The notes beneath the pieces are model-generated. The model made no database searches. It was not told the DNA's origin and saw nothing but the letters and a program-made list of their open reading frames with translations. Source: Burkholderia sp. IMCC1007 (GTDB taxonomy: Bacteria; Pseudomonadota; Gammaproteobacteria; Burkholderiales; Burkholderiaceae). From it: a stretch of DNA of 64,000 nt. The position numbers were made by a program, and so were the translations under genes. Location of the stretch: assembly GCF_027257875.1 (NCBI RefSeq), contig NZ_JAPVQY010000009.1, forward strand, positions 46,119 to 110,118, written 5' to 3'. Shown here piece after piece: positions 66-14,357 of the stretch; the first letter of the stretch is position 1, and each line of letters opens with the position of its first letter.

Positions 66-515
66 TCAGTAGCGGCGGACCGGTTTCGTCCCGAGCCACG
101 GGTAGCGGTCCGTATCGCTGCCCGCATAGTCAGGATCCAGATAGACGTGACACCGCTGGATCCTGAAATCGCGAATCTCGAACACATCACACCAGCGCCC
201 CGCGTGTGTGGCGCCTGCCTGCCAGGCCGCACCGGTTTTCAGGCTGCCGCTCGACAGCCCCTCGACGCACACGAGATCTCCGTGTTGAATGACGTTCAGA
301 CAGGAAGTCTCGTGCGAGACACCGGCCAGAATCGTCATGAGATCGCTGAACAACTGACCGATTTCCTCTTTGCCGCGTGCAACGCCCCACTTCGGGAAAT
401 ACATTTGTGCGTGGTCGTCGAACAGCTCCAGCAGGTTGCCGCCCCGGTCCAGCCGCCTGAAATACTCGAGCGCGATCGCCTTACGTTGCTCATCGTTCAT
501 CGCCTTGATCTCCAT
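66..515 (-). CDS. SnoaL-like (NTF2-fold) small protein, last gene of the catabolic operon
   Basis: The 149-residue protein has the size and general pattern of SnoaL/NTF2-like alpha+beta barrel proteins. An early helix (NDEQRKAIALEYFRRLD) is followed by the FDDHAQMYFPKWG segment and a beta-rich C-terminal half. Members act as small isomerases, cyclases or ligand-binding proteins, and no catalytic residues can be assigned here. The start is preceded by GGAG at a 6-base spacing. It lies 247 bases downstream of the NIPSNAP gene on the same strand, so it may be the last gene of the operon or have its own promoter in the AT-rich gap. The exact role is unknown. Confidence 0.7.
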   Translation of the reverse strand: MEIKAMNDEQRKAIALEYFRRLDRGGNLLELFDDHAQMYFPKWGVARGKEEIGQLFSDLMTILAGVSHETSCLNVIQHGDLVCVEGLSSGSLKTGAAWQAGATHAGRWCDVFEIRDFRIQRCHVYLDPDYAGSDTDRYPWLGTKPVRRY

Positions 516-762
516 CTCCGTCTCCTTTGACCAAAAAATTTCATGCCTGTCGAACTACATATGCATTCCTAATAAATTCAAAGGGAGAACGCCCATTGAA
601 ATTTCTCCGTCCGGAACACGCCGCGCTTATTTCATGGCGGCCGCTGCGCGTCGAAAGATCCAGGCAACGGGTTCGTCGTGCGCACTGCCCCCCGGCAGGC
701 ACAGCACCATAGGCAAAGCGGGGGCTTTCCGGCCGAGCGCATGACTGCGCTGCCGCGCTCGG
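516..762 (-). other. Gap between NIPSNAP and SnoaL genes, with an inverted repeat
   Basis: An 8-bp inverted repeat (CCGAGCGC at 733-740, GCGCTCGG at 755-762) begins right after the NIPSNAP stop codon. It could form a hairpin in the transcript. It has no following T-run, so it is at best a weak terminator or an mRNA-stabilising structure. The 540-590 part is AT-rich and could hold a promoter for the SnoaL gene, but no good -35/-10 pair was found. Confidence 0.3.
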
Positions 763-1473
763 TCATGGCTCGCTGAACAGCGGCGACATGTCGGCCACCG
801 GCGACGGCCTGAACAAAGCATGTGCGACGTCCAGCAGCACCGGAGAAAGTTCGTTCAGCAGCGACTTCCATGTGCCGGGCCAGGACTGCACCCACTGCCG
901 GGCGACCCAGGCGTCGACGCTCGGCGGGCGCGTATAGACACGCACGCGGTTCAGCGGGCCGACCATCACATTGAACGCGCCCAGCAAACCATCGACAAAC
1001 GACGCGTCGTCGGGCAGGCCCCGTTGCGCGAAAGCCTGCCAGAACCGCGGCACGCCGCCTGCGCGAAAGCTCAAGGTCGTCTCGACGACCACCGCGCGTG
1101 GCGCGGACACCGGTATCGGCGCGCCGTGTACCGGCAACCAGTCGTTGCCGTTGCCCCACATCGGCGTCGCGCGATCAACGCCCGCCGGCACGAGAAACTC
1201 GTTTTCCTGGCGCAGGATCATCGGCCGGACTCGCGCGAAATACGTGGCCAGACGCGTATCGCCGGGCAGACTGCCCAGCCGCGCTTGCCAATCCGCGAAG
1301 TCGTCGTAACGATAGAGACAAACGACCGACTCGGGCATGCCCGACACAGGCGCGAACGCGCCGATCAAACGCTGGAGGATCGGGTTCAGTCCATCGGCAC
1401 GCAACTGTTGTGCGTCCCAGAAATCACTCAGCATGCCGGGTTGCAGCGTGTAGGTACGGCGCTCGATCAGCAT
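763..1473 (-). CDS. NIPSNAP family protein
   Basis: This 236-residue protein starts MLIERRTYTLQPG and has the ferredoxin-like alpha+beta pattern of NIPSNAP proteins. Two related halves are apparent, about residues 1-100 and 110-215, each beginning with a VETTLSFRAG/ERRTYTLQPG-like strand. Bacterial members often sit in aromatic or alkane catabolic operons, but their biochemical role is unclear. The ATG at 1473 is preferred because GGAG lies 6 bases upstream; the in-frame GTG at 1485 overlaps that ribosome site. It follows the maleylacetate reductase gene by 38 bases and is probably co-transcribed with it. Confidence 0.75.
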   Translation of the reverse strand: MLIERRTYTLQPGMLSDFWDAQQLRADGLNPILQRLIGAFAPVSGMPESVVCLYRYDDFADWQARLGSLPGDTRLATYFARVRPMILRQENEFLVPAGVDRATPMWGNGNDWLPVHGAPIPVSAPRAVVVETTLSFRAGGVPRFWQAFAQRGLPDDASFVDGLLGAFNVMVGPLNRVRVYTRPPSVDAWVARQWVQSWPGTWKSLLNELSPVLLDVAHALFRPSPVADMSPLFSEP

Positions 1474-1511
1474 CGGTTTCTCCACTTCTCGGCGATGACG
1501 CCGCTATCGTG

Positions 1512-2570
1512 TTACAGGGTATCGGCGCCTTCGTAAGCGCGTTCCAGCAGCGCGCGAACCGCGTGCCGCTCGATCGGGCGAGGGTTCGGATAGGTCCTTT
1601 CGACAATCAGGTCCGCCGCACGGTCGAGGCCGTCGCGCGGCATCCCGATCTCGCGCAATGAACGCGGCGCACCGAGCGAGTCGATCAGGCCGCGCAGCCC
1701 GGCGACCGCGTCCGTCGCACCGATCGCGCGCCCTATACGCTCGAGCGCATGCGCAACGTGAGCCGCGTTATAGCGCAGCGCATACGGCAGGATGACGGTG
1801 TGGACGTCGGCATGAGGAAGATTGAACGTGCCGCCCAGCGTATGGCATATCTTGTGATGAAGGCCCATTTGGACGTTGCCGAGCACGGTCCCGCAGAGCC
1901 ATGCGCCGTAAAGCGCGTCGCCACGCGCGTCGACGTCGGAAGGCGACACGTACAGGCGCGGCAGCGCGCTCGCGAGTGCACGTATCCCCTCTTCGGCCAT
2001 CAGGCTGTATACCGGGCTGCCATCGCGCGCATACAGCCCCTCGACGGCGTGCGCGATGGCGTTCACACCGCTCGTGACGCTCAGCTTCACCGGCAACGTG
2101 AGCGTCAGCCGCGGGTCATACACGACGCACCGCGGCAGCACGCGCCAGTCCTTGCCGGTTTTCTTCACGCCCGCTTCGGTCAGCCCGTAAAGCGGCGTCA
2201 TTTCGGAGCCGGCATAGGTCGTCGGCAACGCGATGATCGGCAGATCGGCGTCGAGCGCAATGGCCTTCGCGAGGCCGATCGTCGACCCGCCGCCCGCCGC
2301 GATGCACGCATCGGCGCCGGACGCCCGCATCACCCGGACAGCCTCTCGCGCCGTCTCGATCGGGACATGCATGACCGCCTTGGCCAACACGCCCGCACTG
2401 CGCTTTCCGAGCAGATGGGCGATTTGATGCCCCAACGCCGCCTGTTCGGGCGTCGTAATCAGCAGAGCCCGAGCGACGCCCAGCGAGTCGAGAATTGCGG
2501 GAAGGGTTTCCAGGCTGCCGCTGCCGAATACGACCCGACCGCCGTGGCTTTCATGGTTGAACGACTGCAT
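1512..2570 (-). CDS. Maleylacetate reductase (iron-type alcohol dehydrogenase family)
   Basis: This enzyme reduces maleylacetate to 3-oxoadipate with NAD(P)H, the step that sends hydroquinone- and hydroxyquinol-type ring-cleavage products into the beta-ketoadipate pathway. The approximately 350-residue sequence shows the family order: N-terminal nucleotide-binding half with GGGSTIGLAKA and PTTYAGSEMT, then an all-helical half with DPRLTLTLP, SGVNAIAHAVEGLY and GLHHKICHTLGG, the metal and substrate pocket region. The ATG at 2570 fits family N-termini (MQSFNHESHGGRVVFGSG); the GTG at 2621 would add 17 unlikely residues. It sits directly downstream of a ring-cleavage dioxygenase and an esterase, which supports the assignment. 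Close relatives in the iron-dehydrogenase family are excluded mainly by this context. Confidence 0.88.
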   Translation of the reverse strand: MQSFNHESHGGRVVFGSGSLETLPAILDSLGVARALLITTPEQAALGHQIAHLLGKRSAGVLAKAVMHVPIETAREAVRVMRASGADACIAAGGGSTIGLAKAIALDADLPIIALPTTYAGSEMTPLYGLTEAGVKKTGKDWRVLPRCVVYDPRLTLTLPVKLSVTSGVNAIAHAVEGLYARDGSPVYSLMAEEGIRALASALPRLYVSPSDVDARGDALYGAWLCGTVLGNVQMGLHHKICHTLGGTFNLPHADVHTVILPYALRYNAAHVAHALERIGRAIGATDAVAGLRGLIDSLGAPRSLREIGMPRDGLDRAADLIVERTYPNPRPIERHAVRALLERAYEGADTL

Positions 2571-2617
2571 GATGTGATTCGATTCCTGCTCAAAGGGGTA
2601 TCCGGCGCGCGACTGGA

Positions 2618-3253
2618 TCACGCGTCGAGCGTGCGTCTCGCATATTCGATTTCCGCATCACGTATGCCGTGCTCAGTCGCCGGATCGACGTGCAGTGTGA
2701 CGGCGGCACCGGCCGCTTCGAACAGGGCCGCCGACCGGCGGACGTATTCCACCGGGACATGAGGATCGCGCTCCCAGGTGGAAAACAGCGCCGGCATGCC
2801 TGAAAAATCGCGCGCCGCCGGAGCGCGCTGCAGTTCCGGCGGCCCGATCAACGCTCCAGTGAAGGACATCAACGCACGGTACCGCCGCCGGTTGCGCCAC
2901 ACGAACTCGCTGCACAGGCAGGCGCCTTGCGAGAACCCCATCAGCACCTGCGACGCATACGGTACGCCCTGCAGCCGCAGCCGCTCGGACAGCGCGTCCA
3001 GACACGCGAGCGCGTCGGAAAGACGGGGCTCGTTCAATTCGACGGGAACCAGAAAGCGCTCCGGGTACCACGATGCGCCGTCTGCCATGGGCGCCCGCCA
3101 CGCAAGGTCCGGCCGACCGAATCGGCGCACGACGTGATCGTGCATCCAGTCCGCCGACTGACCACGCCCGTGCACGAGAATCACCGTTGCAGCGGCACGA
3201 TCGAGCGGCGCGCCATAATCGGTCACCGGCTGTTCGAGATGTGTATTCGTCAT
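2618..3253 (-). CDS. Alpha/beta hydrolase (phospholipase/carboxylesterase family)
   Basis: This 211-residue serine hydrolase belongs to the small YpfH/carboxylesterase type. The oxyanion-hole strand is VILVHGRGQSADW, the nucleophile elbow is MGFSQGA, the acid lies in the STWERDPHVP region and the catalytic histidine is in TEHGIRD. It is expected to cleave an ester or a thioester-like intermediate, or to release the aromatic substrate of this operon. It lies 62 bases downstream of the dioxygenase gene and 47 bases upstream of the maleylacetate reductase start, so it is part of the operon. The substrate cannot be read from the sequence. Confidence 0.8.
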   Translation of the reverse strand: MTNTHLEQPVTDYGAPLDRAAATVILVHGRGQSADWMHDHVVRRFGRPDLAWRAPMADGASWYPERFLVPVELNEPRLSDALACLDALSERLRLQGVPYASQVLMGFSQGACLCSEFVWRNRRRYRALMSFTGALIGPPELQRAPAARDFSGMPALFSTWERDPHVPVEYVRRSAALFEAAGAAVTLHVDPATEHGIRDAEIEYARRTLDA

Positions 3254-3315
3254 GAGATCGACGCTTCCAGACCATCGCAGCAGGCGGCACGTCGCCGCCC
3301 GGCCTGCTTGTCGTT

Positions 3316-4275
3316 TCAATAATTGAGGGCTTCCAGCGATTCCAGGATCACCGCGCGCTGACTTTCGAACTGCGGCGCAAGCTGCACCGTCTGCCCCATC
3401 TCCTCGTACGGTTCGTCGATCAGGAACGCATCCGGCTTCGAAACGGTCGCCTCGAACATCGCACCGCTCGGCGTGCGAACGTAGATCGATTCGAAGTAGC
3501 CGCGGTCCTTGCGCTCCGACGTATCGGTAAAGCCGAGACCTTCGAGATTGGCCTTGACCCGATCCTGTACCGAGCGGTCGGCGACCTGAAACGCGCAGTG
3601 ATGCACGATCCCCTCGCCGTAAGTCCAGCTCGCCTGACGCATGTCCGGCTCGAGCGCGTAATCGACAAACTTGCCGGAGCCGCCGTCGCCGAATGCATAG
3701 CGCGCGAACTTGCCATCCTTGTCGACCTCGTGCGCCGACCAGCCCTGCTGCATGAATTCCTGCGAAGCCTCCATGTCGCGCACGTTCACGCCGATCGTAT
3801 GCAGGCCGCGAATCGCCAGCTCGGCCGGCACGTCGCCGTTCGAATAGGGCTTGCGTGCGTCGTCGGCAATGCCGATCAGCTCGTACGGGATGCCGCACGG
3901 ATGGCAAAACGACAGGACCTGCTCGCCGAAACGTTCCGACCGACGGACCTCGAATCCGTGCGCGGCAAGCCGTCGTTCCCAGAACGGAATCGCCGATACA
4001 GGAACAGACAGCGACAGGCCGCCGATCTGCCCCGCGCCGCGATGCCCCTTGCGCCCGAAATGCGCGACCGGAAAGCAGGTAATCAGCGTGCTTTCCTCGC
4101 CGAGATCATTACCGTAGTAAAGGTGGTAAAACGGCGCCATGCCGTCGTAGATGAGCGTCTTCTTCACGCTTTTCAGCGACAGCACCTTCGTATGGAAGTC
4201 ATAGTCCTGTTGCGCGGTACCGACGCACAGCGTGATGTGATGGTGGCGCATGATCGCCTGGTTGATCTGGGTCAT
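3316..4275 (-). CDS. Hydroquinone-type ring-cleaving dioxygenase (VOC family, PcpA/LinE/MhqA-like)
   Basis: This 319-residue, two-module VOC protein opens hydroquinone-type rings using Fe(II) and O2. The pattern matches the PcpA/LinE group: RHHHITLC near residue 12 gives the first His ligand, GIVHHCAF the second His, and RTPSGAMFEAT the Glu ligand. YHLYYGNDLGEESTLITCFP and DRGYFESIYVRTP are also shared with that group. The start at 4275 is preferred because GGAG lies 8 bases upstream; the upstream ATG at 4290 overlaps it. With the downstream maleylacetate reductase it forms the core of a ring-cleavage pathway. Whether the natural substrate is hydroquinone, a chloro- or methyl-hydroquinone, or another para-diol is not visible. 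Confidence 0.87.
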   Translation of the reverse strand: MTQINQAIMRHHHITLCVGTAQQDYDFHTKVLSLKSVKKTLIYDGMAPFYHLYYGNDLGEESTLITCFPVAHFGRKGHRGAGQIGGLSLSVPVSAIPFWERRLAAHGFEVRRSERFGEQVLSFCHPCGIPYELIGIADDARKPYSNGDVPAELAIRGLHTIGVNVRDMEASQEFMQQGWSAHEVDKDGKFARYAFGDGGSGKFVDYALEPDMRQASWTYGEGIVHHCAFQVADRSVQDRVKANLEGLGFTDTSERKDRGYFESIYVRTPSGAMFEATVSKPDAFLIDEPYEEMGQTVQLAPQFESQRAVILESLEALNY

Positions 4276-4339
4276 GTGTGTCTCCTTCATGGAATCGAAT
4301 GCGATACAAATTCGCGGCGGGCGGGAACCGGCCGACGTA

Positions 4340-5101
4340 CTAACCGGTCATCGCGTCGTCGACGAGTTGCCAGATGAAGCGCCCCGACGGACGCTTCTGC
4401 TCTTCCGCGATATGCGCGATCAATCCGGCCGCGCGACTGAGCACGGCGAAGCCGCGCATCAACGACGGGGGAATGCCGAGATCGCCGAGCAGTGCCGCGA
4501 TCGCGCCGGTCGCATTGATCGTGACGTGCTTGCCGGCGGCGGCATCGACTTCCGCAGCCAGCATCTCGAGCGCTTCGCAATGGGCGCCATACGTACCGGC
4601 ATCGCGCGCGAGCGCAAGCAATGCGATGGCACGCGGATCGTCCGGCCGGTGCAGATGGTGCCCAAATCCCGGAACGGGCTCGTGCCGCGCGCGGTATTCA
4701 CGTGCCACGTCCGCGGCCTCGCGCGGCCCGTTCTCCTGGGCCGCGACAATCCTCGCGAGCAGCTCCGCGGCCGGCTCCATCGTGCCGACGAAACGGCTGG
4801 CCACCGCGAGCAGGCCCGCGGCGACGCCCGCCTGAAGATTCTCGGGCGAACTCGAGTACACCATCCGCGTCGCGATGGCACTGGGCGTCATGCCATGCTC
4901 CATCAGCGTCACGAGAATCGCATCGACGACACGTCGCTGGTGCTGCGCGAGCGCGATACCGAAGGTCTGCTGCATGAATACGTCGATGAAACCGGCGTTG
5001 CCGATCAGGTCGTCGACGAGATTGCTGTCGCCGTAGTACACCGCATCCGCGGTGTAGCGACAGAGCCGGCTATCCGGCACATCGGCCTTGCCCGCCATCA
5101 C
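4340..5101 (-). CDS. Citryl-CoA lyase-like protein (C-terminal citrate synthase fold)
   Basis: The 253-residue protein corresponds to the catalytic part of citrate synthase without the N-terminal domain. It has LMEHGMTPSAIATR (the His274-type region), VPGFGHHLHRPDDPRA (the His320-type region) and the ATGAIAALLGDLGIP helix. Short proteins of this type are annotated as citryl-CoA lyases, which break or make C-C bonds next to a CoA thioester. The start codon overlaps the stop of the acyl-CoA ligase gene by 4 bases, so translation is probably coupled and the two enzymes likely act in sequence on one acyl-CoA. The true substrate is unknown, and citrate is unlikely in this context. Confidence 0.78.
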   Translation of the reverse strand: MMAGKADVPDSRLCRYTADAVYYGDSNLVDDLIGNAGFIDVFMQQTFGIALAQHQRRVVDAILVTLMEHGMTPSAIATRMVYSSSPENLQAGVAAGLLAVASRFVGTMEPAAELLARIVAAQENGPREAADVAREYRARHEPVPGFGHHLHRPDDPRAIALLALARDAGTYGAHCEALEMLAAEVDAAAGKHVTINATGAIAALLGDLGIPPSLMRGFAVLSRAAGLIAHIAEEQKRPSGRFIWQLVDDAMTG

Positions 5102-6594
5102 TGCCCCCTTGTTCCGAGGATCGCATCGCGAACCGCCGGCTTGAGCACCTTGCCGACCGCGCTACGCGGCAATGCATCGAAAAAATGAACGACCTTCGGC
5201 GTCTTGACCGAACCGAGCTCGCGCTTGACGAACGCGATCAGTTCGTCCGTGTGTACGCTTGCGCCCGGGCGCAGTTGCACCGCGGCATGTACCGCTTCGC
5301 CCCATTTGTCGTCCGGAACGCCGACCACCGAGCAGTCCGCGACGGCCGGGTGCCCCGACAGGACCACTTCGACGTCTCCGGGATAGACATTGAATCCGCC
5401 GGTGATGATGACGTCGCGCATGCGGTCGCGCAGAAACAGATAGCCGCGCTCGTCGAACACGCCCGCATCGCCGGTACGCAGCCAGCCGTCGATCAGGGTC
5501 TTGCGCGTTTCTTCTTCCGCATTCAGGTATCCGCTCATGACGAGGCCGCCACGCACGGCGATCTCGCCCTCCTCGCCCGGCGGCAGCGGCACTCCGTCCT
5601 TGCCGATGATCGCCACCTGCGTCAGCAGCGTCGGTCGTCCGACCGACGCGAGGTTCTCGCCCGTCATGTCGGTCGGCGGCAGGAACGTGATGATTTGCGG
5701 TGCTTCGGTCTGCCCGAACGACGTACAGACGACCGGACCGAACACGGCTTGCGCATCGCGAATCTGCTCGGGCCGCATCGGCGCGCCGCCGTAGACCAGA
5801 TAGCGCAGCGCGCCGAGCGAGCGCGGCGCGCTGCGCTGTTCTTCAGCGAGCGCCTGGATCAGCGTGGGCGGCGCAAAGAAGACCGTCACGTCGTGCGCGC
5901 TCGCGTGATCGAGCAACGCTCCCGGCTTCGCGTGGTCGGGAAAGACGAGCGCACCGCCGGAGCCGAGGATCGGCAGCATGTACGTCGATGTGCCGTGCGT
6001 GAGCGGGGCCGCGACGAGATAACGGTCATTCGGCTGCAACCCGAGCTCATGAATCTGCGTCGCGATGCTCGTGGTCCACGCGCGCAGCGGCTGGATCACC
6101 CCTTTCGGGAAACCCGTCGTCCCGCCGGTAAATTTGATGGCCTGCGCGTCGTCCAGCGGAATGCCGGCGCGCGAGCGCGGGCCCATCGCGAGCGCGTCGC
6201 GATTGCCGGTCTGACGAGCCAGCGCATCGAGCGGCTGCAATGGGGCATCGATCGGCTCGAGACGTTCCAGCATCGCCGTATCGGCGAGTACCAGCGACGG
6301 TTTGACGAAATCGACGATGCGGTGCAACTCGGGATCGCCGTTGCGCGGATTGAGCGGCACCCAGACCTTGCCGGCCGCGAGAATCGCGAGAATGGCCACC
6401 AGATGGTCGACCGAATTCGCGGCGCCCACGCAAACACGGCTGCGCGGCTGCGGATCGATGCGATCGAGCGCGGCGGCGCGATCGAGCACGATGTCCGCGA
6501 GCGCGGCGAACGTCAGATCGCCCTGCGGGCTGATCACCGCGAGACGGTCGGGATGCCGCTGCACGGCACGCCACAAATAGTCGATTGGATACAT
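5098..6594 (-). CDS. Acyl/aryl-CoA ligase (ANL superfamily), first gene of the catabolic operon
   Basis: This 498-residue AMP-forming ligase activates a carboxylic acid to its CoA ester with ATP. Landmarks in order are the P-loop KFTGGTTGFPKGV, the A4/A5 region YGGAPM and TSFGQTEAPQ, the hinge RTGDAGVFDERGYLFLRDR, IITGGFNVYPGDVE, and the catalytic lysine region PRSAVGKVLK. The ATG at 6594 is chosen because GGAG lies 7 bases upstream and MYPIDYLWRAVQRHPDR resembles family N-termini; extending to 6756 would run through the regulatory region. It overlaps the next gene by 4 bases. Being first in the operon and divergent from a GntR gene suggests its product or substrate is the inducer. The acid it uses is unknown. 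Confidence 0.88.
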   Translation of the reverse strand: MYPIDYLWRAVQRHPDRLAVISPQGDLTFAALADIVLDRAAALDRIDPQPRSRVCVGAANSVDHLVAILAILAAGKVWVPLNPRNGDPELHRIVDFVKPSLVLADTAMLERLEPIDAPLQPLDALARQTGNRDALAMGPRSRAGIPLDDAQAIKFTGGTTGFPKGVIQPLRAWTTSIATQIHELGLQPNDRYLVAAPLTHGTSTYMLPILGSGGALVFPDHAKPGALLDHASAHDVTVFFAPPTLIQALAEEQRSAPRSLGALRYLVYGGAPMRPEQIRDAQAVFGPVVCTSFGQTEAPQIITFLPPTDMTGENLASVGRPTLLTQVAIIGKDGVPLPPGEEGEIAVRGGLVMSGYLNAEEETRKTLIDGWLRTGDAGVFDERGYLFLRDRMRDVIITGGFNVYPGDVEVVLSGHPAVADCSVVGVPDDKWGEAVHAAVQLRPGASVHTDELIAFVKRELGSVKTPKVVHFFDALPRSAVGKVLKPAVRDAILGTRGQ

Positions 6595-6667: not shown

Positions 6668-6681
6668 AATGTTCGAACATT
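6668..6681. promoter_or_regulatory. Perfect 14-bp palindrome, candidate operator of the GntR regulator
   Basis: AATGTTCGAACATT is a perfect palindrome 74 bases upstream of the acyl-CoA ligase start. The core GAACATTCG recurs at 6743-6751 near the GntR gene. Two such sites in a divergent intergenic region fit binding by a dimeric GntR/UTRA protein that represses both directions. No binding data are implied. Confidence 0.55.
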
Positions 6682-6740: not shown

Positions 6741-6778
6741 ACGAACATTCGAACAAAGGCCCAACCGCCCGCTATACT
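6741..6778 (+). promoter_or_regulatory. Second GntR-type half-site pair and -10 box of the gntR-like gene
   Basis: The sequence ACGAACATTCGAACA at 6741-6755 repeats the core of the palindrome at 6668-6681. It ends 17 bases before TATACT at 6773-6778, a good -10 box 29 bases upstream of the GntR start codon. The site thus covers the expected -35 region, which predicts autoregulation. Confidence 0.45.
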
Positions 6779-6807: not shown

Positions 6808-7581
6808 ATGAACGCCCCCGTCCCAGCGTCCGATACCGTCTCGCTCGAGTCCCCCCAGCCCCGTCATGTCGACTTGGCCCGCACGCTGATGCACGACATC
6901 GGCAGCGGCCGATACCGGGTCGGAGACATGCTGCCGACGGAAGCCGAGCTGTGCGCCCAATGGAACCTCAGCCGCTATGCCGTGCGCCAAGCCATTCTGA
7001 AGCTGTGCGAACTTGGCCTGATCAGCCGCCAGGCAGGGATCGGCACCCGCGTGATCGCGAGTCATCCACACACCCGCTACGTGCAGTCGATGGATTCGTT
7101 ATCGGATCTCGCCCGTTACGCGCAAGGCACACGACTCGATGTCGTATCGCGCAGCGTCCGCCCCGCGAGCGATGCCGAATCCGGCCTCCTGCACTGCGCA
7201 CCCGGGACCAAGTGGTTGCATATCGCCGGCATTCGCCACGATGTATCGGGCGCAGCCGAGCCGATCGCGCTCGTCGACCTGTATGTCGCGGAGCGCTACA
7301 GTCGCCTGAAAGGCGTGGGAGAAACGCTCGATACACCGATACACACGATGCTCGAGCAACAGTTCGGCATCAAGGCGACGCGCGTCGAACAGCAGATCCA
7401 GGGGCTGCTGCTCGTCGGCGACCAGGCAGTCGCATTGCGGGTGCCGGACCAATCGGCCGGGCTACGTATCGTGAGAACCTATTACGCTCAAGACACTGTG
7501 ATCGAGGTCACGTCGGGCATTCATCCTGCAAGCCGCTTCAGCTATTCGATGACGTTTCAGCTGACGCATACATCGAGCTGA
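6808..7581 (+). CDS. GntR family regulator with UTRA ligand domain (HutC subfamily)
   Basis: This 257-residue transcription factor has an N-terminal winged helix (about residues 20-88, with GRYRVGDMLPTEAELC, LSRYAVRQAILKL and GLISRQAGIGTRV) and a C-terminal UTRA effector-binding domain (about 100-250, with SRSVRPASDAESG and SRFSYSMTFQL). The family usually represses a divergent catabolic operon and is released by a pathway metabolite. It is divergent from the ligase-led operon, with palindromic sites in between. No strong ribosome site precedes the ATG. Effector unknown. Confidence 0.9.
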   Translation: MNAPVPASDTVSLESPQPRHVDLARTLMHDIGSGRYRVGDMLPTEAELCAQWNLSRYAVRQAILKLCELGLISRQAGIGTRVIASHPHTRYVQSMDSLSDLARYAQGTRLDVVSRSVRPASDAESGLLHCAPGTKWLHIAGIRHDVSGAAEPIALVDLYVAERYSRLKGVGETLDTPIHTMLEQQFGIKATRVEQQIQGLLLVGDQAVALRVPDQSAGLRIVRTYYAQDTVIEVTSGIHPASRFSYSMTFQLTHTSS

Positions 7582-7973
7582 TATTCGAACTCGCGCCGCG
7601 TGCTGCGTCGAACGAATGCGTCGCGTGCGTTCGACAAAAATGCTCCGTTCGACCATCGTGTCTGCCGCGCTTGCAGCGACTCGCTTGACGTAGCGTTGAA
7701 ATTCGCCGGCTGCCGCGCGATGCCGCTTGCCGCGTTCCGGCTCGTTCGCGCGACATGGCCCTCTCGATGATCTTTCCTACGATCATGCGCGCAATATCGA
7801 CGGGGCACGCATCGCGCTCGACGGCGGCCTCGCGGTGAGCGCAAGGTACGCAGTCGATCCGCCCGATCGTCGACGATGCATGCGACCCAACAGGCCCGGT
7901 GTATCCAGTCCCGGCGCCATCTCCCCGGATCACTTATCATACCGGCCAAGAAATTCGCGACGAAAGGCAGATC
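7582..7973. other. 392-bp gap between the GntR gene and the riboflavin-synthase-like gene
   Basis: No intact gene can be supported here. It contains a short stretch resembling the end of a short-chain dehydrogenase (separate entry). TATCAT at 7934-7939 could be a -10 box for the following gene. No FMN-riboswitch-like consensus was seen, despite the riboflavin-related gene downstream. Confidence 0.5.
7760..7843 (+). pseudogene. Possible remnant of a short-chain dehydrogenase C-terminus
   Basis: Read in the plus frame, this stretch gives YDHARNIDGARIALDGGLAV, which resembles the conserved end of SDR proteins (xITGxxIxVDGGxxxS). No N-terminal SDR motifs are found in the 180 bases upstream in any frame. 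If it is real, only the tail remains. The match is short and could be chance. Confidence 0.25.
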
Positions 7974-8687
7974 ATGTTTACAGGCATTGTTCAGGGTATT
8001 GGCGTCATCGAGGCCATCAAGGATCACGGCGAGCTGCGCACGTTCAGCATCGCATTCCCCGAGGGCTTCACCACCGACATCGAGATCGGCGCGAGCGTGT
8101 CCGTCGACGGCGTCTGTCTGACCGTGACGACGATCCATTCTCCGGCCCTGATCGACTTCGACGTGATGCTGCCGAGCCTGCGCATCACCACGCTCGCCGG
8201 CCTCACGACCGGCGCGCGCGTCAACGTCGAGCGGGCCGCCAAGGACGGCGCGGAAATCGGCGGGCATCCGCTGTCCGGCCACGTCGACTTCATGGGGACC
8301 ATCGCGAACATCGCGTCGTCCGAGCACAACCGGATGATCCGGATCGCCGTGCCGGCCGATTTCAAGCGCTATGTGTTCGCAAAGGGCTATATCGCGATCA
8401 ACGGCTGCAGCCTCACCGTGGCGGACGTCAACCGCGACGAAGGCTGGTTCGAGGTCTGGCTGATTCCCGAAACGCGCCGCGCCACCACCTTCGATGCGAA
8501 GGGCGTCAACGACAAGGTCAACATCGAGATCGAGCGCAGCACGCAGGTCGTCGTCGATACGATCCGCGAGTCGGTCAAGGAAACGCTCGGCGAACTGACC
8601 GGCGTCGTCACGACGTTGCTCGCGGAAAAGGGCATCGACATCGAGGAACTGCTCGCGCGCAACGTCGCGAAGCTACCGAAGGCGTAA
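7974..8687 (+). CDS. Riboflavin synthase alpha-chain-like protein
   Basis: The 237-residue protein shows the two-barrel plan of riboflavin synthase, which makes riboflavin from two 6,7-dimethyl-8-ribityllumazine molecules. The first barrel has MFTGIVQG, VDGVCLTVT and GGHPLSGHVD; the second has INGCSLTVADV and IPETRRATT. Catalytic-region residues appear kept, so it may be active, although close relatives include non-catalytic lumazine-binding proteins. The C-terminus (after about residue 200) is longer than in E. coli RibC/RibE. The start at 7974 has AAGG 6 bases upstream. No other rib gene is near, which suggests a second copy or a specialised role. Confidence 0.82.
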   Translation: MFTGIVQGIGVIEAIKDHGELRTFSIAFPEGFTTDIEIGASVSVDGVCLTVTTIHSPALIDFDVMLPSLRITTLAGLTTGARVNVERAAKDGAEIGGHPLSGHVDFMGTIANIASSEHNRMIRIAVPADFKRYVFAKGYIAINGCSLTVADVNRDEGWFEVWLIPETRRATTFDAKGVNDKVNIEIERSTQVVVDTIRESVKETLGELTGVVTTLLAEKGIDIEELLARNVAKLPKA

Positions 8688-8792: not shown

Positions 8793-10034
8793 TCACTCCG
8801 CCTCCGCCTGCGCGCCCTTCCCCACCGCCACCCGCTGCGACCGATAGATCCCCGCGTGCCCGGAGAACAGATACGCGACCACGCAAGCAACGATCGCATA
8901 CACGCCGATATCCGCGCCGAACAGTTCGATCGCCATGATCGTCGATGCGATCGGCGTGTTGGCCGCGCCCGCGAACACCGCGACGAAGCCGAGCCCCGCG
9001 AGCACCGGCACGGGCAGCGCGAGCACCGGTCCGAGCGCGTTGCCGAGCGTCGCGCCGATGTAGAACAGCGGCGTCACCTCACCGCCCTTGAATCCCGACG
9101 CCAGCGTGACGACGGTAAACGCGAACTTGCCCGCGAAATCGTAAGCCGGCAGCGGCCCGTGAAACGCGGCCTCGATCGTCGGAATCCCGAGGCCGAGATA
9201 CTGCGGCACGTTCAGCACGGTCGCGGCCACGGCGACGAGCAGGCCGCCGAGCACCGGCTGCAGCGGCGCGTAGCGCACGATCCGCCGAAACCATGCCGTC
9301 AGCCCGTGCGTCGCATACGCGAACAGCCGACCGACGACACCGAACGCGACACCCGCGACCACCGTCGCGGCAAGCCCCGCCGCCGACACGGCCGGCACGA
9401 ACGGAATCGCATACACGGTGTGATGCACGCCCCACGCGCGGCACACGACGTCCGCGACGATCGCCGATGCCACGCAGGTCAACAGCGCGTCGTACCGCAA
9501 GCGCCCGATCGCGAGCACCTCGAGCCCGAACACGGCACCGGCGAGCGGCGTGCCGAACACCGACGAGAACCCGGCCGCGATACCGCCCATCAGCAGCACG
9601 CGCCGATGCTCGCGATCGAGACGGAACACGTGCGTGACGCGATCGGCGAGCGCGCCGCCCATCTGCACGGCCGTGCCCTCGCGGCCGGCCGACCCGCCGA
9701 ACAGGTGCGTGACGACGGTCGCGACGAGCACGAGCGGCGCCATCCGTTTCGGCACGAGCGCCTTCGGGTCGTGGATCTCGTCGATCAACAGGTTGTTGCC
9801 GCGCGCGACCGACTGGCCGAACCGGTGATAGATCCAGCCCGTCGCGAAGCCGGCGGCCGGGAGCCCCCACAACAGCCACGGATGCGCGACGCGCGTGCCG
9901 GTGGCCCAGTCGAGCGCGATCAGGAACACCGCGGAAGCCGAGCCGGCCAATGCGCCGAGCAGGGCCGAAAGCGCGAGCCAGCGGCACACGTAGCGGACGG
10001 TCGCGAAAAAATCGGCAGAAGTCGAAAAAAACAT
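8793..10034 (-). CDS. CLC-type antiporter, probably fluoride-exporting CLC-F
   Basis: This 413-residue, multi-pass inner-membrane protein of the CLC family has GNNLLIDEIHDPK near residue 75, SAGREGTAVQMGGALAD (GREGT, not the GREGP of chloride-type CLCs), LGLGIPT and GGEVTPLFYIGATLGNALG. The changed selectivity motifs and the fluoride riboswitch in the leader point to the CLC-F (EriC-F) F-/H+ antiporter subgroup, which expels fluoride. It lacks the cytoplasmic CBS domains of longer CLCs. The ATG at 10034 gives the natural N-terminus MFFSTSADFFATVRY; upstream extension would enter the riboswitch. The selectivity call is inference from motifs and context. Confidence 0.85.
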   Translation of the reverse strand: MFFSTSADFFATVRYVCRWLALSALLGALAGSASAVFLIALDWATGTRVAHPWLLWGLPAAGFATGWIYHRFGQSVARGNNLLIDEIHDPKALVPKRMAPLVLVATVVTHLFGGSAGREGTAVQMGGALADRVTHVFRLDREHRRVLLMGGIAAGFSSVFGTPLAGAVFGLEVLAIGRLRYDALLTCVASAIVADVVCRAWGVHHTVYAIPFVPAVSAAGLAATVVAGVAFGVVGRLFAYATHGLTAWFRRIVRYAPLQPVLGGLLVAVAATVLNVPQYLGLGIPTIEAAFHGPLPAYDFAGKFAFTVVTLASGFKGGEVTPLFYIGATLGNALGPVLALPVPVLAGLGFVAVFAGAANTPIASTIMAIELFGADIGVYAIVACVVAYLFSGHAGIYRSQRVAVGKGAQAEAE

Positions 10035-10089
10035 GATTTCCAGATTCGACGGAACATCGAACCCTGGGCGGCAGAACACCGCGTGGACG

Positions 10090-10125
10090 GCCTGCGACCT
10101 CCTGACGACCCAGGAACACGCAGGC
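10090..10125 (-). promoter_or_regulatory. Hairpin overlapping the 3' end of the fluoride aptamer (expression platform)
   Basis: GCCTGCG, the last bases of the aptamer, can pair with CGCAGGC downstream, with an inner TCCTG/CAGGA stem. The arm contains AGGAGG. Formation would compete with the aptamer, so this is the likely switching element. There is no T-run after it, so whether it works by termination or by sequestration cannot be read from the sequence. Confidence 0.5.
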
Positions 10126-10212
10126 ATCATCAGCCGGGCAGACCGGCGGTTGAGGGCCGAACCGTGCGCGCAACGCGCCGGGATCGACCGCAGGGAGGCA
10201 TGCCATCTCCGC
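10119..10212 (-). promoter_or_regulatory. Fluoride riboswitch (crcB motif)
   Basis: On the minus strand the leader reads GGAGATGGCATGCCTCC, then after about 42 bases AACCGCCGGTCTGCCC followed by GGCTGATGATGCCTGCG. This matches the conserved parts of the crcB fluoride aptamer (GGAGAUGGCAUUCCUCC and GCUGAUGAUGCCUAC, as in the Pseudomonas syringae eriC RNA) and can form the same pseudoknot (GGCAT with ATGCC). The extra 42 bases contain a GGCGCG-TT-GCGCGC-like hairpin and look like an inserted peripheral stem. Fluoride binding would switch on the downstream CLC gene. Confidence 0.85.
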
Positions 10213-10220
10213 TGGCGGCA

Positions 10221-10250
10221 ATTGTACGCGACGCGCGACACGGCGCGCAA
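10221..10250 (-). promoter_or_regulatory. Promoter of the riboswitch-CLC transcript
   Basis: On the minus strand TTGCGC (10245-10250) and TACAAT (10221-10226) are spaced by 18 bases. The predicted start of transcription is at about 10213, directly before the first base of the fluoride aptamer. This agreement supports both calls. Confidence 0.55.
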
Positions 10251-10321: not shown

Positions 10322-11341
10322 TCAGTCGCGCGGCATGCGCGCCACGCGCGAGATCAGCTGCGGCGCGATCCGCTCGAGCGGCAGGATCGCCGATGCCGCG
10401 CCGATGGCCGCGGCCGCCTTCGGCATCCCGTACACGGCGCTCGTCGCCTCGTCCTGCGCGATCGTGTAGCAGCCCTTCGCGCGCATCGCCTTCAGCCCGA
10501 GCGCGCCGTCGCGCCCCATTCCCGTCAGCAGCACGCCGAGCGCATCGCCCTGCCAGCCATCGGCCACGCTATTGAAGAACACGTCGATCGACGGCCGGTA
10601 CGGCGTCTCGGCCGGATGCCGCGTATAGCTGAGCACGCCGCGCGGCGACAGGCACAGGTGATCGTTGGTCGCCGCGAGCAGCACCTCGCCCGGCTGCGGC
10701 ACGCTGCCCTGCCGCGCGATACGCACGGGCAGCCGCGTATTGCCGTCGAGCCACTGAGCCATGCCGACCGCGAACGCCTGGTCGACGTGCTGCACGATCA
10801 CGAGCGCGGCCGGAAAATCGGCCGGCAGTGCGCGCAGCAGCGCGGTGAGCGCGGTCGGGCCACCCGCCGACGCGCCGATCGCGACGAGCGTCGGCTGGCC
10901 GCGCGCGCGTGCCGGCGCGGGCGGCACGACTGTGGCGGTGCGGTTTTCGAGCAGCCGGCCGATCTGGTCGATCTTCGCGAGCAGCGGCTGCCGCGCCCCA
11001 TCAGACGGCAGGCCGAGCGCGAGCGTCGGCGTGTCGACCGCATCGAGCGCACCGGCGCCCATCGCCTCGTACACCGACGACGTGTTCGCACTGACGCTCG
11101 CGGTCACGATCAGGATCGCGCACGGCGCGCGCGCCATGATCTGCCGCGTCGCGGCCACGCCGTCGAGCCTCGGCATCACGAGGTCCATCAGCACGAGATC
11201 GGGCGGATGCGCGACGCAGAAATCCACGGCCTCGTCGCCATCGGTCGCGACCCACAGCACCCGATGATCGGTGCGCAGCGCGATCACGCGGCGCAGCGCC
11301 TCGACGGCCAGCGGCAGATCGTTGACGATGCCGATGTTCAT
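10322..11341 (-). CDS. wspF: WspF, CheB-like methylesterase/deamidase with receiver domain
   Basis: This 339-residue protein has an N-terminal receiver (phospho-acceptor Asp53 in LMDLVMP) and a C-terminal CheB methylesterase domain with Ser158 (IGASAGG), His185 (VQHVD) and Asp278 (GMGRDGA). It removes methyl groups from the chemoreceptor WspA and resets signalling; loss of WspF locks the Wsp pathway on in Pseudomonas and gives wrinkly colonies. It is the last gene of the operon, with its start overlapping the wspE stop by 4 bases. All active-site residues are present. Confidence 0.92.
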   Translation of the reverse strand: MNIGIVNDLPLAVEALRRVIALRTDHRVLWVATDGDEAVDFCVAHPPDLVLMDLVMPRLDGVAATRQIMARAPCAILIVTASVSANTSSVYEAMGAGALDAVDTPTLALGLPSDGARQPLLAKIDQIGRLLENRTATVVPPAPARARGQPTLVAIGASAGGPTALTALLRALPADFPAALVIVQHVDQAFAVGMAQWLDGNTRLPVRIARQGSVPQPGEVLLAATNDHLCLSPRGVLSYTRHPAETPYRPSIDVFFNSVADGWQGDALGVLLTGMGRDGALGLKAMRAKGCYTIAQDEATSAVYGMPKAAAAIGAASAILPLERIAPQLISRVARMPRD

Positions 11342-13629
11342 CCGCGCGCATCCCCGATCAGGTCGTGCACCGCATCGAGCAGCGCCTCGTCGTGGAAACT
11401 GCTCTTCGCGAGGTAGTAGTCGGCGCCGGCGTCGAGCCCGCGCCGGCGATCCTCGTCGCGATCCTTGTACGACACGATCATCACCGGCACGCGCGTGAGC
11501 ATCGGATCGCCCTTGATCAGCGTGACGAGCTCGATGCCGTCCATGCGCGGCATGTCGACGTCGGTCACGACCAGGTCGAACGCGTCGCTGCGCACGGCGT
11601 TCCAGCCGTCCATCCCGTCGACCGCGACGGTCACGTCGTAGCCGCGCTTCTCGAGCAGCTTGCGTTCGAGCTCGCGCACGGTCAGCGAATCGTCGACGAC
11701 GAGCACGCGGCGGCGCCGGTCGGCCAGCGCGAGCTGCGGATCGCGCGTGAGCTTCGCGAGCTGCCCGCCGCGCACGAGCTTGTCGACCGAGCGGATCAGG
11801 TCCTCGACATCGACGATCAGCACCGGGTCGCCGTTCTCGAGCAGCGCGCCGGCCGCGATGTTCTGGATCTTGTGCAGGCGGCTGTCGAGCGGCTGCACGA
11901 CGAGCATCCGCTCGCCGAGAAAGCGGTCGACCGCGATGCCGTACAGCTCGGGCTCGCCGCCGACCACCACCACCGCCGTGCTGGACCGCGTGACGTCGGG
12001 TTCGCCCGCATCGAGCAGCTGATGCGCGGAAACGAGCCCCGCGCGCCGGCCGTCGAACGGAAAATGCGGCTGGCCTTCGAGCACGTCGATGTCTTCGTGC
12101 GCGAGTTCGAGCGTGCGCCGCACGTGGGCGAGCGGAAACGCATACGGCTCGCCGCCGACCTCGACCAGCAGGCTGCGGATCACCGACAGCGTGAGCGGCA
12201 GCTGCAGCACGAAGCGCATGCCCGCACCGGGCTCGTTGAAGATGCGCACCGCGCCGCGCACGCCGCGCACCATCTCGTGCACCGCGTCGAGGCCGACCCC
12301 GCGCCCGGACACGTCGGTCACCGCGTCGCGCATCGAGAAGCCCGGCAGCAGCAGGAATTCGAGCAGTTCGGGATCGGACAATCGCGCGGCCGTCTCGTCG
12401 TCGGTCAGCCGTTGGCGGACGACGGCCGCGCGCAGCGCGTCCATGTCGACGCCCGGGCCGTCGTCGATCACGCTGACGAGCAGCGAGCCGGCGCTGTGGC
12501 GCGCCTCGAGCGTCACGCTCGCTTCGGCGGGCTTGCCGCGCGCGCGCCGCGCGTCGGGCGACTCAACGCCATGATCGAGCGCGTTGCGCAGCAGGTGGCC
12601 GAGCGGCGCGTCGAGCAGGTCGAGAATGTCGCGGTCGACCTGCGTGCCTTCGCCGACGATCGAGAAGCGCACCTGCTTGCCCAGCGAGCGCGCGAGATCG
12701 CGGACGATGCGCGGATACGCGCGCGTCGCGTCGCCGAACGGCCGCATCCGGCACTGCAGCGCCTCGTCGTAGAGCTGCTCGGCGATGTGCGTGCTGCGGC
12801 GCTCGAAGCGGTCGAATTCATCCATCCGCTCGGCCAACGAACGCTGCAGGTCGTTCAGCATGTGCCGCACTTCGTTCACCGACGCGAGCACGCCCGCGCC
12901 GAGCTCGTCGGCAAACTGTTCGTACACCAGATCGAGCGAACGGGCCGCGTCGCGCTGCGCGCGCTTCACGCGCAGCATCGATTCGGCGAACGGCTTGAGC
13001 CAGCGCGACTCGACGAGCGATTCGCCGGACAGGCTCAACAGCCGGTTCAGCGTATCGGCACGCACGCGGCGCATCGCGCCCGCGCCGGCCGCCCGGCTGG
13101 CCTGGACCGAATCCGGCACGGCCGCCGATACGGCGAGCGGCGGCACCTCGGCCCCCGCGCCCACCGGCTCGTTCGCGGCGCCATCGTGCTCGCGAAGCGG
13201 TACGACGGACGGCGGTGCCGGCGGCGGCGTCGCTCGCGCGCCGTCCGCGCCCGTGAGCGCTGCCGCGAATGCATCGATGTCGGACGACGACACGGGCTGC
13301 GCATGCGGATCGGCGACACGCACCAGCAGGTCGACGCCCGCGAGCAGCACGTCGACGTGCGCGGCCGTCAGCGTGATGGTGCCGGCTTGCGCGGCGACGA
13401 AGCATTCCTCCATCCGCCCCGCGATGTCGATGCCGAGCGGCACGCCGACGATGCGCGCGGCCCCCTTCAGCGAATGCGCGGCGCGCATGCAGGCTTCGAG
13501 CGCGACGGAATCGGGCTCGCCCGATTCGAGCGCGAGCAGGCGCTCGGACAGCGCCTGGGTCTGCGTGCGCGTCTCCTCGCGATACAGCTCGAGCAGCGAC
13601 AGGTGGCTCAGATCGTCATCGCCGCTCAT
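11338..13629 (-). CDS. wspE: WspE, CheA-type hybrid histidine kinase with C-terminal receiver
   Basis: This 763-residue cytoplasmic kinase has, in order: an Hpt domain with His52 (AHSLKGAARIVG); a long Ala/Pro linker (about 115-190); a CheA dimerisation and ATPase domain (NALDHGVESPDARR, DGPGVDMDA, GRGVGLDAVHEMV); a CheW-like docking domain (about 490-625); and a receiver beginning at about 642 with acceptor Asp690 (VVTDVDMP). It phosphorylates the pathway response proteins in answer to WspA. The ATG at 13629 overlaps the wspD stop (ATGA). The open frame extends further upstream, but that part is antisense-frame overlap with wspD and not coding. Confidence 0.93.
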   Translation of the reverse strand: MSGDDDLSHLSLLELYREETRTQTQALSERLLALESGEPDSVALEACMRAAHSLKGAARIVGVPLGIDIAGRMEECFVAAQAGTITLTAAHVDVLLAGVDLLVRVADPHAQPVSSSDIDAFAAALTGADGARATPPPAPPSVVPLREHDGAANEPVGAGAEVPPLAVSAAVPDSVQASRAAGAGAMRRVRADTLNRLLSLSGESLVESRWLKPFAESMLRVKRAQRDAARSLDLVYEQFADELGAGVLASVNEVRHMLNDLQRSLAERMDEFDRFERRSTHIAEQLYDEALQCRMRPFGDATRAYPRIVRDLARSLGKQVRFSIVGEGTQVDRDILDLLDAPLGHLLRNALDHGVESPDARRARGKPAEASVTLEARHSAGSLLVSVIDDGPGVDMDALRAAVVRQRLTDDETAARLSDPELLEFLLLPGFSMRDAVTDVSGRGVGLDAVHEMVRGVRGAVRIFNEPGAGMRFVLQLPLTLSVIRSLLVEVGGEPYAFPLAHVRRTLELAHEDIDVLEGQPHFPFDGRRAGLVSAHQLLDAGEPDVTRSSTAVVVVGGEPELYGIAVDRFLGERMLVVQPLDSRLHKIQNIAAGALLENGDPVLIVDVEDLIRSVDKLVRGGQLAKLTRDPQLALADRRRRVLVVDDSLTVRELERKLLEKRGYDVTVAVDGMDGWNAVRSDAFDLVVTDVDMPRMDGIELVTLIKGDPMLTRVPVMIVSYKDRDEDRRRGLDAGADYYLAKSSFHDEALLDAVHDLIGDARG

Positions 13630-14357
13630 CGCATGCTCCGGGTCACGGCGTCGAACAGACGATCGTCGTCGAGCAGCCCCACCGACTTGCCGCGCCACGA
13701 CAGCACGCCGCGCGACAGGCCGGCGCTCGCGCGGCCGACCGTCGCCGGCACGGGCACCCATTCGGATGCGCCGAAGTGCAGCACGCCCTCGACCTCGTCG
13801 ACCGGAAACACCACCGGCTCGCCGTGGTGCGCGGCGACCAGCAGCCGCGTGAAGCGGCCGTCCGCGTCGCCATTGCCGTCCTTGCCAACCTTGCGATCCT
13901 TGCCGCCGTTGCCCGCATCGAGGCCGAGCAGCGCGCCGATCGAAATCGCGATGCGCAGCGTGCCGCGAATGTTGACCACGCCGCGCACGGCCGAGTGCCG
14001 ACGATGCGGCAGCGAATGGATCGGGCGTGTGCCGGCGATCTCGCGCAGCACGCCGATCGGCAGCGCGAGCCATTCGTCGGCGACGCGAAACGCCAGCGCC
14101 GCCTGGCGCGTATCGTCGTCGCCGCGCGCGCGGGTCGCGTCGAACCCGCTCATCCGGCGCGTGGCGTCGGCCATCTCGGCCGCGCCGAGCGGGCGCTCGA
14201 GCAGCTTCGCCGCGTGATACGCGTAGACCGGGCAGTTCAGGCAGCGCAGACAGTCGGCCAGCCGCTCGCACGAACGGTCGCCGCGCGTGCCGATCCGGTT
14301 CCAGCAGTCGTCGATGCCGATCGTCGTGTCGTCAGTGACAACGGCGTCGCGGTTCAT
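13626..14357 (-). CDS. wspD: WspD, CheW-like coupling protein with Cys-rich N-terminus
   Basis: A CheW-type scaffold links the receptor WspA to the kinase WspE. The N-terminal 60 residues hold DCWNRIGTRGDRSCERL followed by CLRCLNCPVY, a cysteine cluster seen in WspD proteins that may bind metal. The CheW domain (about 80-235) includes RGVVNIRGTLRIAISIG. A Gly/Lys/Asp-rich insert lies at about residues 150-165. The start at 14357 has GAGG 5 bases upstream; an in-frame ATG at 14372 is the alternative. It overlaps wspE by 4 bases. Confidence 0.87.
   Translation of the reverse strand: MNRDAVVTDDTTIGIDDCWNRIGTRGDRSCERLADCLRCLNCPVYAYHAAKLLERPLGAAEMADATRRMSGFDATRARGDDDTRQAALAFRVADEWLALPIGVLREIAGTRPIHSLPHRRHSAVRGVVNIRGTLRIAISIGALLGLDAGNGGKDRKVGKDGNGDADGRFTRLLVAAHHGEPVVFPVDEVEGVLHFGASEWVPVPATVGRASAGLSRGVLSWRGKSVGLLDDDRLFDAVTRSMR

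Follow-up and report, generated by a model that had tools for sequence, protein, structure and literature searches.

The 3-oxoadipate pathway is a main route by which aromatic compounds reach central metabolism; a CoA-transferase and a thiolase are the enzymes usually named for its final steps. The pcp and lin pathways degrade chlorinated hydroquinones arising from pentachlorophenol or lindane and are not known to involve a ligase or lyase. Single-subunit LinE-like enzymes cleave the C1-C2 bond of chlorohydroquinone, and in the mnp cluster a LinE-like aminohydroquinone dioxygenase is joined by an amidase and a maleylacetate reductase (both from PMC5604080). Here we analyse an operon of Burkholderia sp. 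IMCC1007 in which enzymes of this kind stand together with an acyl-CoA ligase and a citrate-synthase-fold lyase. It lies in a stretch of 64,000 nucleotides (henceforth the window; G000:C128:46119-110118, from the 8.57 Mb source genome G000) and comprises seven minus-strand open reading frames (ORFs) at window positions 66-6594, with a divergent GntR/UTRA gene at 6808-7581. A first-pass annotation, made from the letters of the window alone, had described exactly this arrangement, and we found the ORFs to be intact and to have matching Pfam domains.

The operon very probably degrades a hydroquinone-type phenol. Our best overall explanation, to which we give a rough probability of 0.42, is GntR-controlled hydroquinone catabolism by a dioxygenase, an esterase and a maleylacetate reductase, followed by action of the ligase-lyase pair on an aliphatic acid. 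The features are as follows.

5098..6594, minus strand: LIG, AMP-forming acyl-CoA ligase, 498 amino acids, the operon's first gene (ATG at 6592-6594)
4340..5101, minus strand: CCL, citrate-synthase-fold lyase (NCBI name citryl-CoA lyase), 253 amino acids
3316..4290, minus strand: DO, predicted single-subunit hydroquinone ring-cleavage dioxygenase of the PcpA/LinE type, 324 amino acids
2618..3253, minus strand: EST, alpha/beta hydrolase (Abhydrolase_2), about 211 amino acids
1512..2570, minus strand: MAR, predicted maleylacetate reductase, 352 amino acids (frame open to 2621)
763..1485, minus strand: NIPSNAP-domain protein, accessory, 240 amino acids (PF07978, E 2.1e-14)
66..515, minus strand: SnoaL-like protein, accessory, 149 amino acids (PF12680, SnoaL_2, E 3.7e-8)
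6668..6681, no strand: operator-like palindrome AATGTTCGAACATT, within the 213-base LIG/GntR intergenic region
6808..7581, plus strand: divergent GntR-family regulator with a UTRA domain, 257 amino acids (PF00392, E 2.9e-14; PF07702, E 5.1e-15)

In transcription order, the first pair, LIG and CCL, shares 4 bases (a gap of -4) and the following gaps measure 49, 62, 47, 26 and 247 bases. The genes are presumably co-transcribed, with membership of the SnoaL gene less certain given the 247-base gap upstream of it.

A predicted hydroquinone module

DO matches the Glyoxalase/VOC Pfam family (E 8.4e-7) and aligns over residues 13-320 of its 324 with the solved 2,6-dichlorohydroquinone dioxygenase PcpA (4huz; E 7.4e-82, 278 bits), a much nearer relative than MhqO (E 1.3e-44, 156 bits). 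Residues H17/H18, H230/H231 and E280 align with PcpA, are invariant in all 25 dioxygenase loci of the survey described below, and are positions that we take to be the Fe(II) ligands (two His, one Glu) of PcpA/LinE-type enzymes. Full-length homology makes DO very probably a type I hydroquinone 1,2-dioxygenase of this type, hydroquinone cleavage itself being predicted. EST matches PF02230 (Abhydrolase_2; E 2.8e-11) and a solved relative (4h0c; E 3.5e-38). Its putative triad Ser110 (GFSQG)-Asp165-His197, assigned from the motif, is likewise invariant in 25/25 loci (numbering follows P0004, which begins two codons ahead of the Met), and the NCBIfam MhqD equivalog scores 24.6 bits, far under its cut-off of 325.

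MAR carries the C-terminal Pfam domain of iron-containing alcohol dehydrogenases (E 1.5e-42) and aligns with solved maleylacetate reductases (3w5s, E 9.4e-102, 344 bits; 3hl0, E 2.1e-100, 340 bits) as well as with two chains titled only as alcohol dehydrogenase (3jzd, 448 bits; 3iv7, 298 bits), the next chain scoring 123 bits. These closest solved relatives would place it in the maleylacetate reductase class rather than among other iron-containing alcohol dehydrogenases. DO and MAR stand in one gene run, as in mnp/lin/pcp-type hydroquinone pathways to 3-oxoadipate, and the matches to PcpA and to maleylacetate reductases support the earlier proposal that a PcpA/LinE-type dioxygenase feeds a maleylacetate reductase, and through it 3-oxoadipate, here.

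Distribution and the dioxygenase-esterase linkage

We scanned contigs of 84,980 species for CCL and obtained 57 loci which, together with loci from additional genomes and after removal of duplicates, gave 77 tabulated rows. Dropped as duplicates or fragments were L001, L059, L061-L069, L079 and L083-L087 (including L068, a 39% relative with no other representative), while L060 represents the window; L041, L056 and L057 were left out for readings of at most 180 residues. L058 (an ordinary citrate synthase) and L073 (frame broken) are rows of the table that lie outside the tree of 75 lyases. Gene presence was scored by tblastn, since gene calling missed some genes, and absence of a gene means absence from the examined stretch around the locus.

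The maximum-likelihood tree placed the window in a clade of 32 rows (support 96/83), with MAR or an intradiol dioxygenase nearby in 31/32 rows of the clade and in 0/43 outside it. The combination LIG-CCL-DO-EST-MAR is conserved in Burkholderiales (Paraburkholderia, Caballeronia, Cupriavidus, Pandoraea), Pseudomonas and some metagenome-assembled genomes, and the 25 DO loci contain a GntR relative in 22, a NIPSNAP gene in 18 and a SnoaL gene in 9 cases. The distribution is sporadic: a lyase of at least 65% identity was found in 16/398 sampled genomes of the family, and G000 alone among 200 genomes of the order has DO at E 1e-90 or better.

DO, EST and MAR occur together in 25/77 loci, which is far from chance. 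EST was found in exactly the 25 DO loci, all of which have MAR, and the remaining 52 have neither DO nor EST. For the 32 rows of the clade the DO-EST linkage gave a Fisher p of 3e-7, uncorrected for kinship, and on the lyase tree the DO label takes four to five changes, with EST accompanying each. Six clade members have MAR or an intradiol enzyme without DO-EST (L005, L015, L024, L025, L089, L091). Five of these carry an intradiol dioxygenase (Pfam Dioxygenase_C), four of them together with MAR and L025 without it, and the contig piece of L015 contains no intradiol enzyme. An intradiol gene is also present in the DO loci L004, L008, L013 and L021. Gene context suggests hydroxyquinol as the substrate of these intradiol dioxygenases. 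Intradiol cleavage of hydroxyquinol yields maleylacetate in one step, with no hydrolase required, so a hydrolase-free intradiol route replacing DO-EST fits EST acting on the DO product. EST most likely acts after ring opening, hydrolysing the ring-fission product. This goes against the earlier idea that the esterase frees the hydroquinone, given that EST occurs only with DO and that five clade members lacking both use an intradiol dioxygenase.

A ligase-lyase pair with an altered active site

LIG belongs to the AMP-binding Pfam family (E 8.5e-68), its nearest solved chains being FadD8 (261 bits) and feruloyl-CoA synthetase (251 bits). CCL matches Citrate_synt (E 9.1e-28), i.e., the citrate-synthase fold of the lyase module, and scores 421.4 against a cut-off of 409 with the citryl-CoA lyase equivalog NF004867, a match that gives the name only. 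Specifically, Thr198 occupies the Asp position of the NVDG motif (presumably D1026 in human ACLY, the ATP-citrate lyase, for which PDB titles list Asp mutants complexed with substrates or citryl-CoA), so that the catalytic Asp is lacking. Over the 77 rows this position is Thr in 73, Asn in 1, Ser in 1, a gap in 1 (the broken copy) and Glu in 1 (the ordinary citrate synthase), and Asp in none; among closer CCL relatives 70/71 have Thr for Asp, with the active-site histidines and arginines kept. CCL has an extra His149, and His151 at a position that is Tyr in others. Arg157, Arg223 and Arg241, invariant across the 32-row alignment, are what we take to be carboxylate-binding residues of the lyase family, and their retention suggests a carboxylated substrate. 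With an active site that lacks the acid residue, CCL genes may be misnamed as citryl-CoA lyase, and surveys in which citryl-CoA lyase counts serve as a marker for carbon fixation might be led astray by Asp-less genes so named.

LIG stands immediately upstream of CCL in 57/77 rows. At 25 loci outside the operon clade the pair occurs with no dioxygenase or reductase match in the examined stretch: in alphaproteobacteria and in genomes of about 2 Mb from the window's family it lies beside genes for short-chain dehydrogenases/reductases (SDRs) and tripartite tricarboxylate transporters, while other pairs adjoin IclR-like and major facilitator superfamily (MFS) genes. None of the aromatic genes sought was found around these extra-clade pairs, and neighbours of this kind argue for an aliphatic carboxylated acid as the substrate of the pair.

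Several gene arrangements of the lyase family were seen in passing. Three of the genomes of about 2 Mb (L077, L092, L093) have a compact TctC-LIG-CCL-SDR-SDR run. The lyases of L047, L048, L070 and L071 have a MaoC-like (FAS1_DH) hydratase as neighbour, with a family III CoA-transferase in some cases and an acyl-CoA dehydrogenase at L071; such sets presumably recall itaconate degradation. SAR116-type loci (L040, L041, L043, L044, L046, L049-L051 and kin) have the lyase beside M20 peptidases and a gamma-glutamyltransferase, and gave no ligase match.

A conserved operator-like palindrome before the ligase gene

The palindrome AATGTTCGAACATT sits 74-87 bases upstream of LIG. Its 15-base form, with 0-1 mismatch, occurs at a single place in the 8.57 Mb of G000 and in 15/23 genomes searched, as against 0/23 for the reversed control pattern. 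When up to 3 mismatches were allowed in the 300 bases before LIG, a site was present at 30/31 clade loci with LIG (all except L025) versus 0/28 other ligase loci, chance occurrence of such a site before LIG being estimated at about 1% per locus. A looser pattern (18 bases, 3 mismatches) was discarded as unspecific, its control matching in 5/17 genomes. The divergent gene encodes both a helix-turn-helix and a UTRA domain, and its nearest NCBIfam model is HutC (81.5 bits, under the cut-off of 220). The conserved palindrome supports the view, also taken in the first-pass annotation, that a single GntR regulator is shared by the operon, and we infer that the GntR protein binds it. By eye, a second partial operator-like stretch, CGAACATTCGAACAAA, is visible nearer the GntR start (window 6741-6758).

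Additional operator copies likely mark further regulon members elsewhere. They were found at an intradiol dioxygenase cluster that includes a gene resembling 3-hydroxyisobutyrate dehydrogenase together with amidohydrolases (L004, L021, L102), at a porin-BON-amidohydrolase unit (L005, L102) and at ABC transporter genes (L102, L104). In Paraburkholderia domus (L102, 5180-13256) such a second locus has two operator copies and its own GntR paralogue, along with two amidohydrolases, an intradiol dioxygenase and ABC transporter genes. A Pseudomonas locus (L103:9851-13477), on a contig other than that of the main operon, has a perfect 15-base operator before a porin-like gene and a sulfatase. This sulfatase is a hint at a sulfated substrate, and in Pandoraea (L022) a sulfatase and a TRAP transporter lie downstream of the operon; the two sulfatases are just 23% alike, which weakens the idea of entry as an aryl sulfate. 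The conserved operator offers a direct handle for finding the substrate.

Around the operon, a porin gene and a BON-domain gene follow downstream on the same strand, just beyond the window. Behind the GntR gene, an ORF at 7899-8687 (plus strand) resembles riboflavin synthase by eye. A fluoride riboswitch (RF01734; 10114-10219, minus strand; 39.3 bits against a gathering threshold of 34) overlaps the start of a same-strand ORF at 8793-10250 that looks like a ClC-type channel, whose true start is probably downstream of the called one, and ORFs at 10322-14271 (minus strand) resemble CheB and a CheA-type hybrid kinase, again by eye.

Proposed pathway and alternatives

In the pathway that we favour, the putative substrate is a hydroquinone with a leaving group on the ring (methoxy, hydroxy or another heteroatom). 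DO would cleave the bond that links the hydroxylated to the substituted ring carbon, giving an activated acyl product (an ester or lactone), EST would hydrolyse this product to maleylacetate, and MAR would reduce maleylacetate to 3-oxoadipate. We regard the order DO, EST, MAR with considerable confidence as the probable one. EST may act on esters, lactones or other activated acyl compounds. Where the mnp cluster has an amidase for an amide, an esterase would match an ester or lactone. Methoxyhydroquinone was considered as the specific substrate, EST then acting on a methyl ester, and lost ground because a 2,6-dichlorophenol strain has a hydrolase in the same position; we therefore keep the substrate only as a heteroatom-substituted hydroquinone.

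LIG would then convert an aliphatic carboxylic acid to the CoA thioester, and CCL would break a C-C bond adjacent to the thioester. Purely by inference, and at rather less than even odds, this acid may be 3-oxoadipate, cleaved by a hydrolytic retro-Claisen reaction to acetyl-CoA and succinate; the operon would thus run from hydroquinone into central metabolism with no need of a thiolase. In Paracoccus L024, where ligase, lyase, a phenol-hydroxylase-type flavoenzyme, an intradiol dioxygenase, a YCII gene and reductase stand in one row, ligase and lyase would likewise complete the route after 3-oxoadipate. A tentative and rather unlikely formulation within the same reading is that an Asp-less branch of the citrate synthase superfamily, with its ligase, performs ATP-driven, thiolase-free cleavage of 3-oxo or 3-hydroxy dicarboxylates (here 3-oxoadipyl-CoA and water to succinate and acetyl-CoA). 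It is similarly doubtful whether, as this formulation has it, the pair serves other oxo acids in the small genomes of the same family and in many alphaproteobacteria.

Several observations weigh against this pathway. The 28 host genomes searched hold PcaI (28/28) and PcaF (26/28) over cut-off, which makes a second route from 3-oxoadipate superfluous and led us to reject the notion that the pair substitutes for an absent PcaIJF. LIG and CCL are the first genes of the operon, where peripheral steps often sit, and the solved ligases nearest LIG use fatty or hydroxycinnamic acids. LB400 (L017) has LIG-CCL and an operator-like site (2 mismatches), with no DO, intradiol or MAR match in a 20.7 kb stretch. 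The MFS gene of L095 and L076 scores 297/293 bits with a 4-hydroxyphenylacetate permease model versus 315/309 bits with a galactonate model (all under the model cut-offs), a near-equality by which the acid could still be aromatic at these two loci. A strain from a 2,6-dichlorophenol enrichment pairs its LinE-like enzyme with an alpha/beta hydrolase even though no ester would be expected there. Finally, Pfam and NCBIfam matches revealed no hydroquinone-making enzyme among the seven window genes.

We considered whether the flavin hydroxylase of L024 could supply this first step. Among the 77 loci it lies nearby only in L022, L023 and L024, and inside the gene run only in L024. Its orthologues (54-67% identity) occur in 14/22 other genomes searched, G000 included, and the family is clustered in 13/15 loci inspected. 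A GntR-like gene, so labelled by eye, accompanies it in 11 loci, and FAA hydrolases and VOC enzymes in 8 loci each (both names taken from a Pfam search with a single member of each). Near the flavoenzyme, 15-base operator sites with at most 2 mismatches were found only in L121 and L104, and not directly before the hydroxylase. We judged it to belong to a separate pathway and to have been recruited in L024.

Among the alternatives, the one that survives best, though we think it unlikely, is that LIG activates a hydroxyaryl acid (e.g., an aryl-3-hydroxy- or 3-oxopropanoate), that CCL removes the side chain as acetyl-CoA, and that an enzyme encoded elsewhere converts the ring to a hydroquinone for DO, EST and MAR. 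LIG is about as near to feruloyl-CoA synthetase as it is to any solved ligase, the pair heads the operon, and a GMC gene closely related to choline dehydrogenases is found in the related clusters L005, L013, L021, L089 and L091. A predicted choline dehydrogenase of Novosphingobium converts a lignin-derived phenylpropanoid to vanilloyl acetaldehyde, and the later side-chain enzymes of that route are still unknown (PMC11837543). Such a role fits poorly with the rarity of an aldehyde dehydrogenase motif, seen in 1/25 DO stretches and there outside the operon (in a scan without a sensitivity control), and with the Pfam Aldedh matches listed for four genomes, none of which falls in an operon region. 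A decarboxylating hydroxylase was not seen, the 25 extra-clade loci have the pair with no ring-cleavage or reductase match, and the conserved arginines suggest a carboxylated substrate.

Retention of the citryl-CoA lyase fold, histidines and arginines could also be read as a sign that LIG-CCL converts a 2-hydroxy-2-carboxy acid, similar to citramalate or citrate and either set free from the aromatic compound or present alongside it, to acetyl-CoA and a 2-oxo acid, as a citramalyl- or citryl-CoA lyase would. We consider this improbable even with the MaoC-like hydratases, and in some cases the CoA-transferase, that accompany the lyases of L047, L048, L070 and L071: the motif Asp is absent in every family row examined, and we know of no 2-hydroxy-2-carboxy acid in hydroquinone pathways. 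Lastly, detoxification of quinones or hydroquinones rather than growth on an aromatic compound, for which the Bacillus mhq genes are the model, is very improbable, since the weak EST match to MhqD, the clear DO match to MhqO and the pirin and isochorismatase-like genes near several relatives are set against a DO far nearer PcpA (278 bits) than MhqO (156 bits) and against MAR, ligase, lyase, porins and transporters, which indicate carbon use.

Comparison with known systems

The lower pcp and lin pathways have the PcpA/LinE ring-cleavage family and the maleylacetate reductase step in common with the window operon. The Cupriavidus mnp cluster for meta-nitrophenol (MnpC, MnpE, MnpF) shares a LinE-like dioxygenase, a hydrolase and a maleylacetate reductase; it differs in that its hydrolase is an amidase for an aminohydroquinone-derived amide, that entry is by a nitroreductase, and that the accessible part of its description contains no ligase or lyase. 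We observed an mnp-like gene order in C. pinatubonensis, and the iron-containing alcohol dehydrogenase of an mnp-like plasmid record is 29% identical to MAR.

DO had matches in 467 plasmid records, and in the six whose neighbours were inspected a hydrolase or amidase lies near the dioxygenase (6/6), with an annotated maleylacetate reductase in 3/6. A trio of dioxygenase, alpha/beta hydrolase or phospholipase, and maleylacetate reductase is found on pRK1-5, pACHL02 and a Martelella plasmid. Specifically, pRK1-5 of Cupriavidus basilensis (2,6-dichlorophenol enrichment; NZ_CP062809) has a LinE-like dioxygenase (45% identity), a maleylacetate reductase (55%) and an alpha/beta hydrolase that gave no tblastn match to EST at E 1e-4; unlike the window operon, it has LysR genes and an FAD monooxygenase, and the 10.9 kb examined contain neither a ligase nor a lyase. 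On pACHL02 of Pseudarthrobacter chlorophenolicus A6 the dioxygenase (42%), hydrolase (37%) and maleylacetate reductase (42%) lie close together, accompanied by monooxygenase and YceI genes, and the reductase is followed by a thiolase where the window operon has ligase and lyase. Compared with the Hydrogenobacter citryl-CoA lyase and with the lyase module of ATP-citrate lyase, CCL has Thr for the motif Asp, the added His149 and His151 for Tyr, and its gene context is aromatic.

The first-pass statement that no standard pathway uses the whole set therefore stands for the LIG-CCL pair, within the literature searched, and falls for the dioxygenase-hydrolase-reductase trio, which these plasmids already contain. 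In the open-licence literature we found no citryl-CoA-lyase-like gene tied to hydroquinone or hydroxyquinol degradation, and hence no characterised homologous operon of the kind that would have overturned the annotation. DO-EST-MAR represents a module type already on record, and the novelty lies in the LIG-CCL pair: an operon that couples hydroquinone cleavage to this pair suggests either an alternative finish to the 3-oxoadipate pathway or a new way of shortening aryl side chains.

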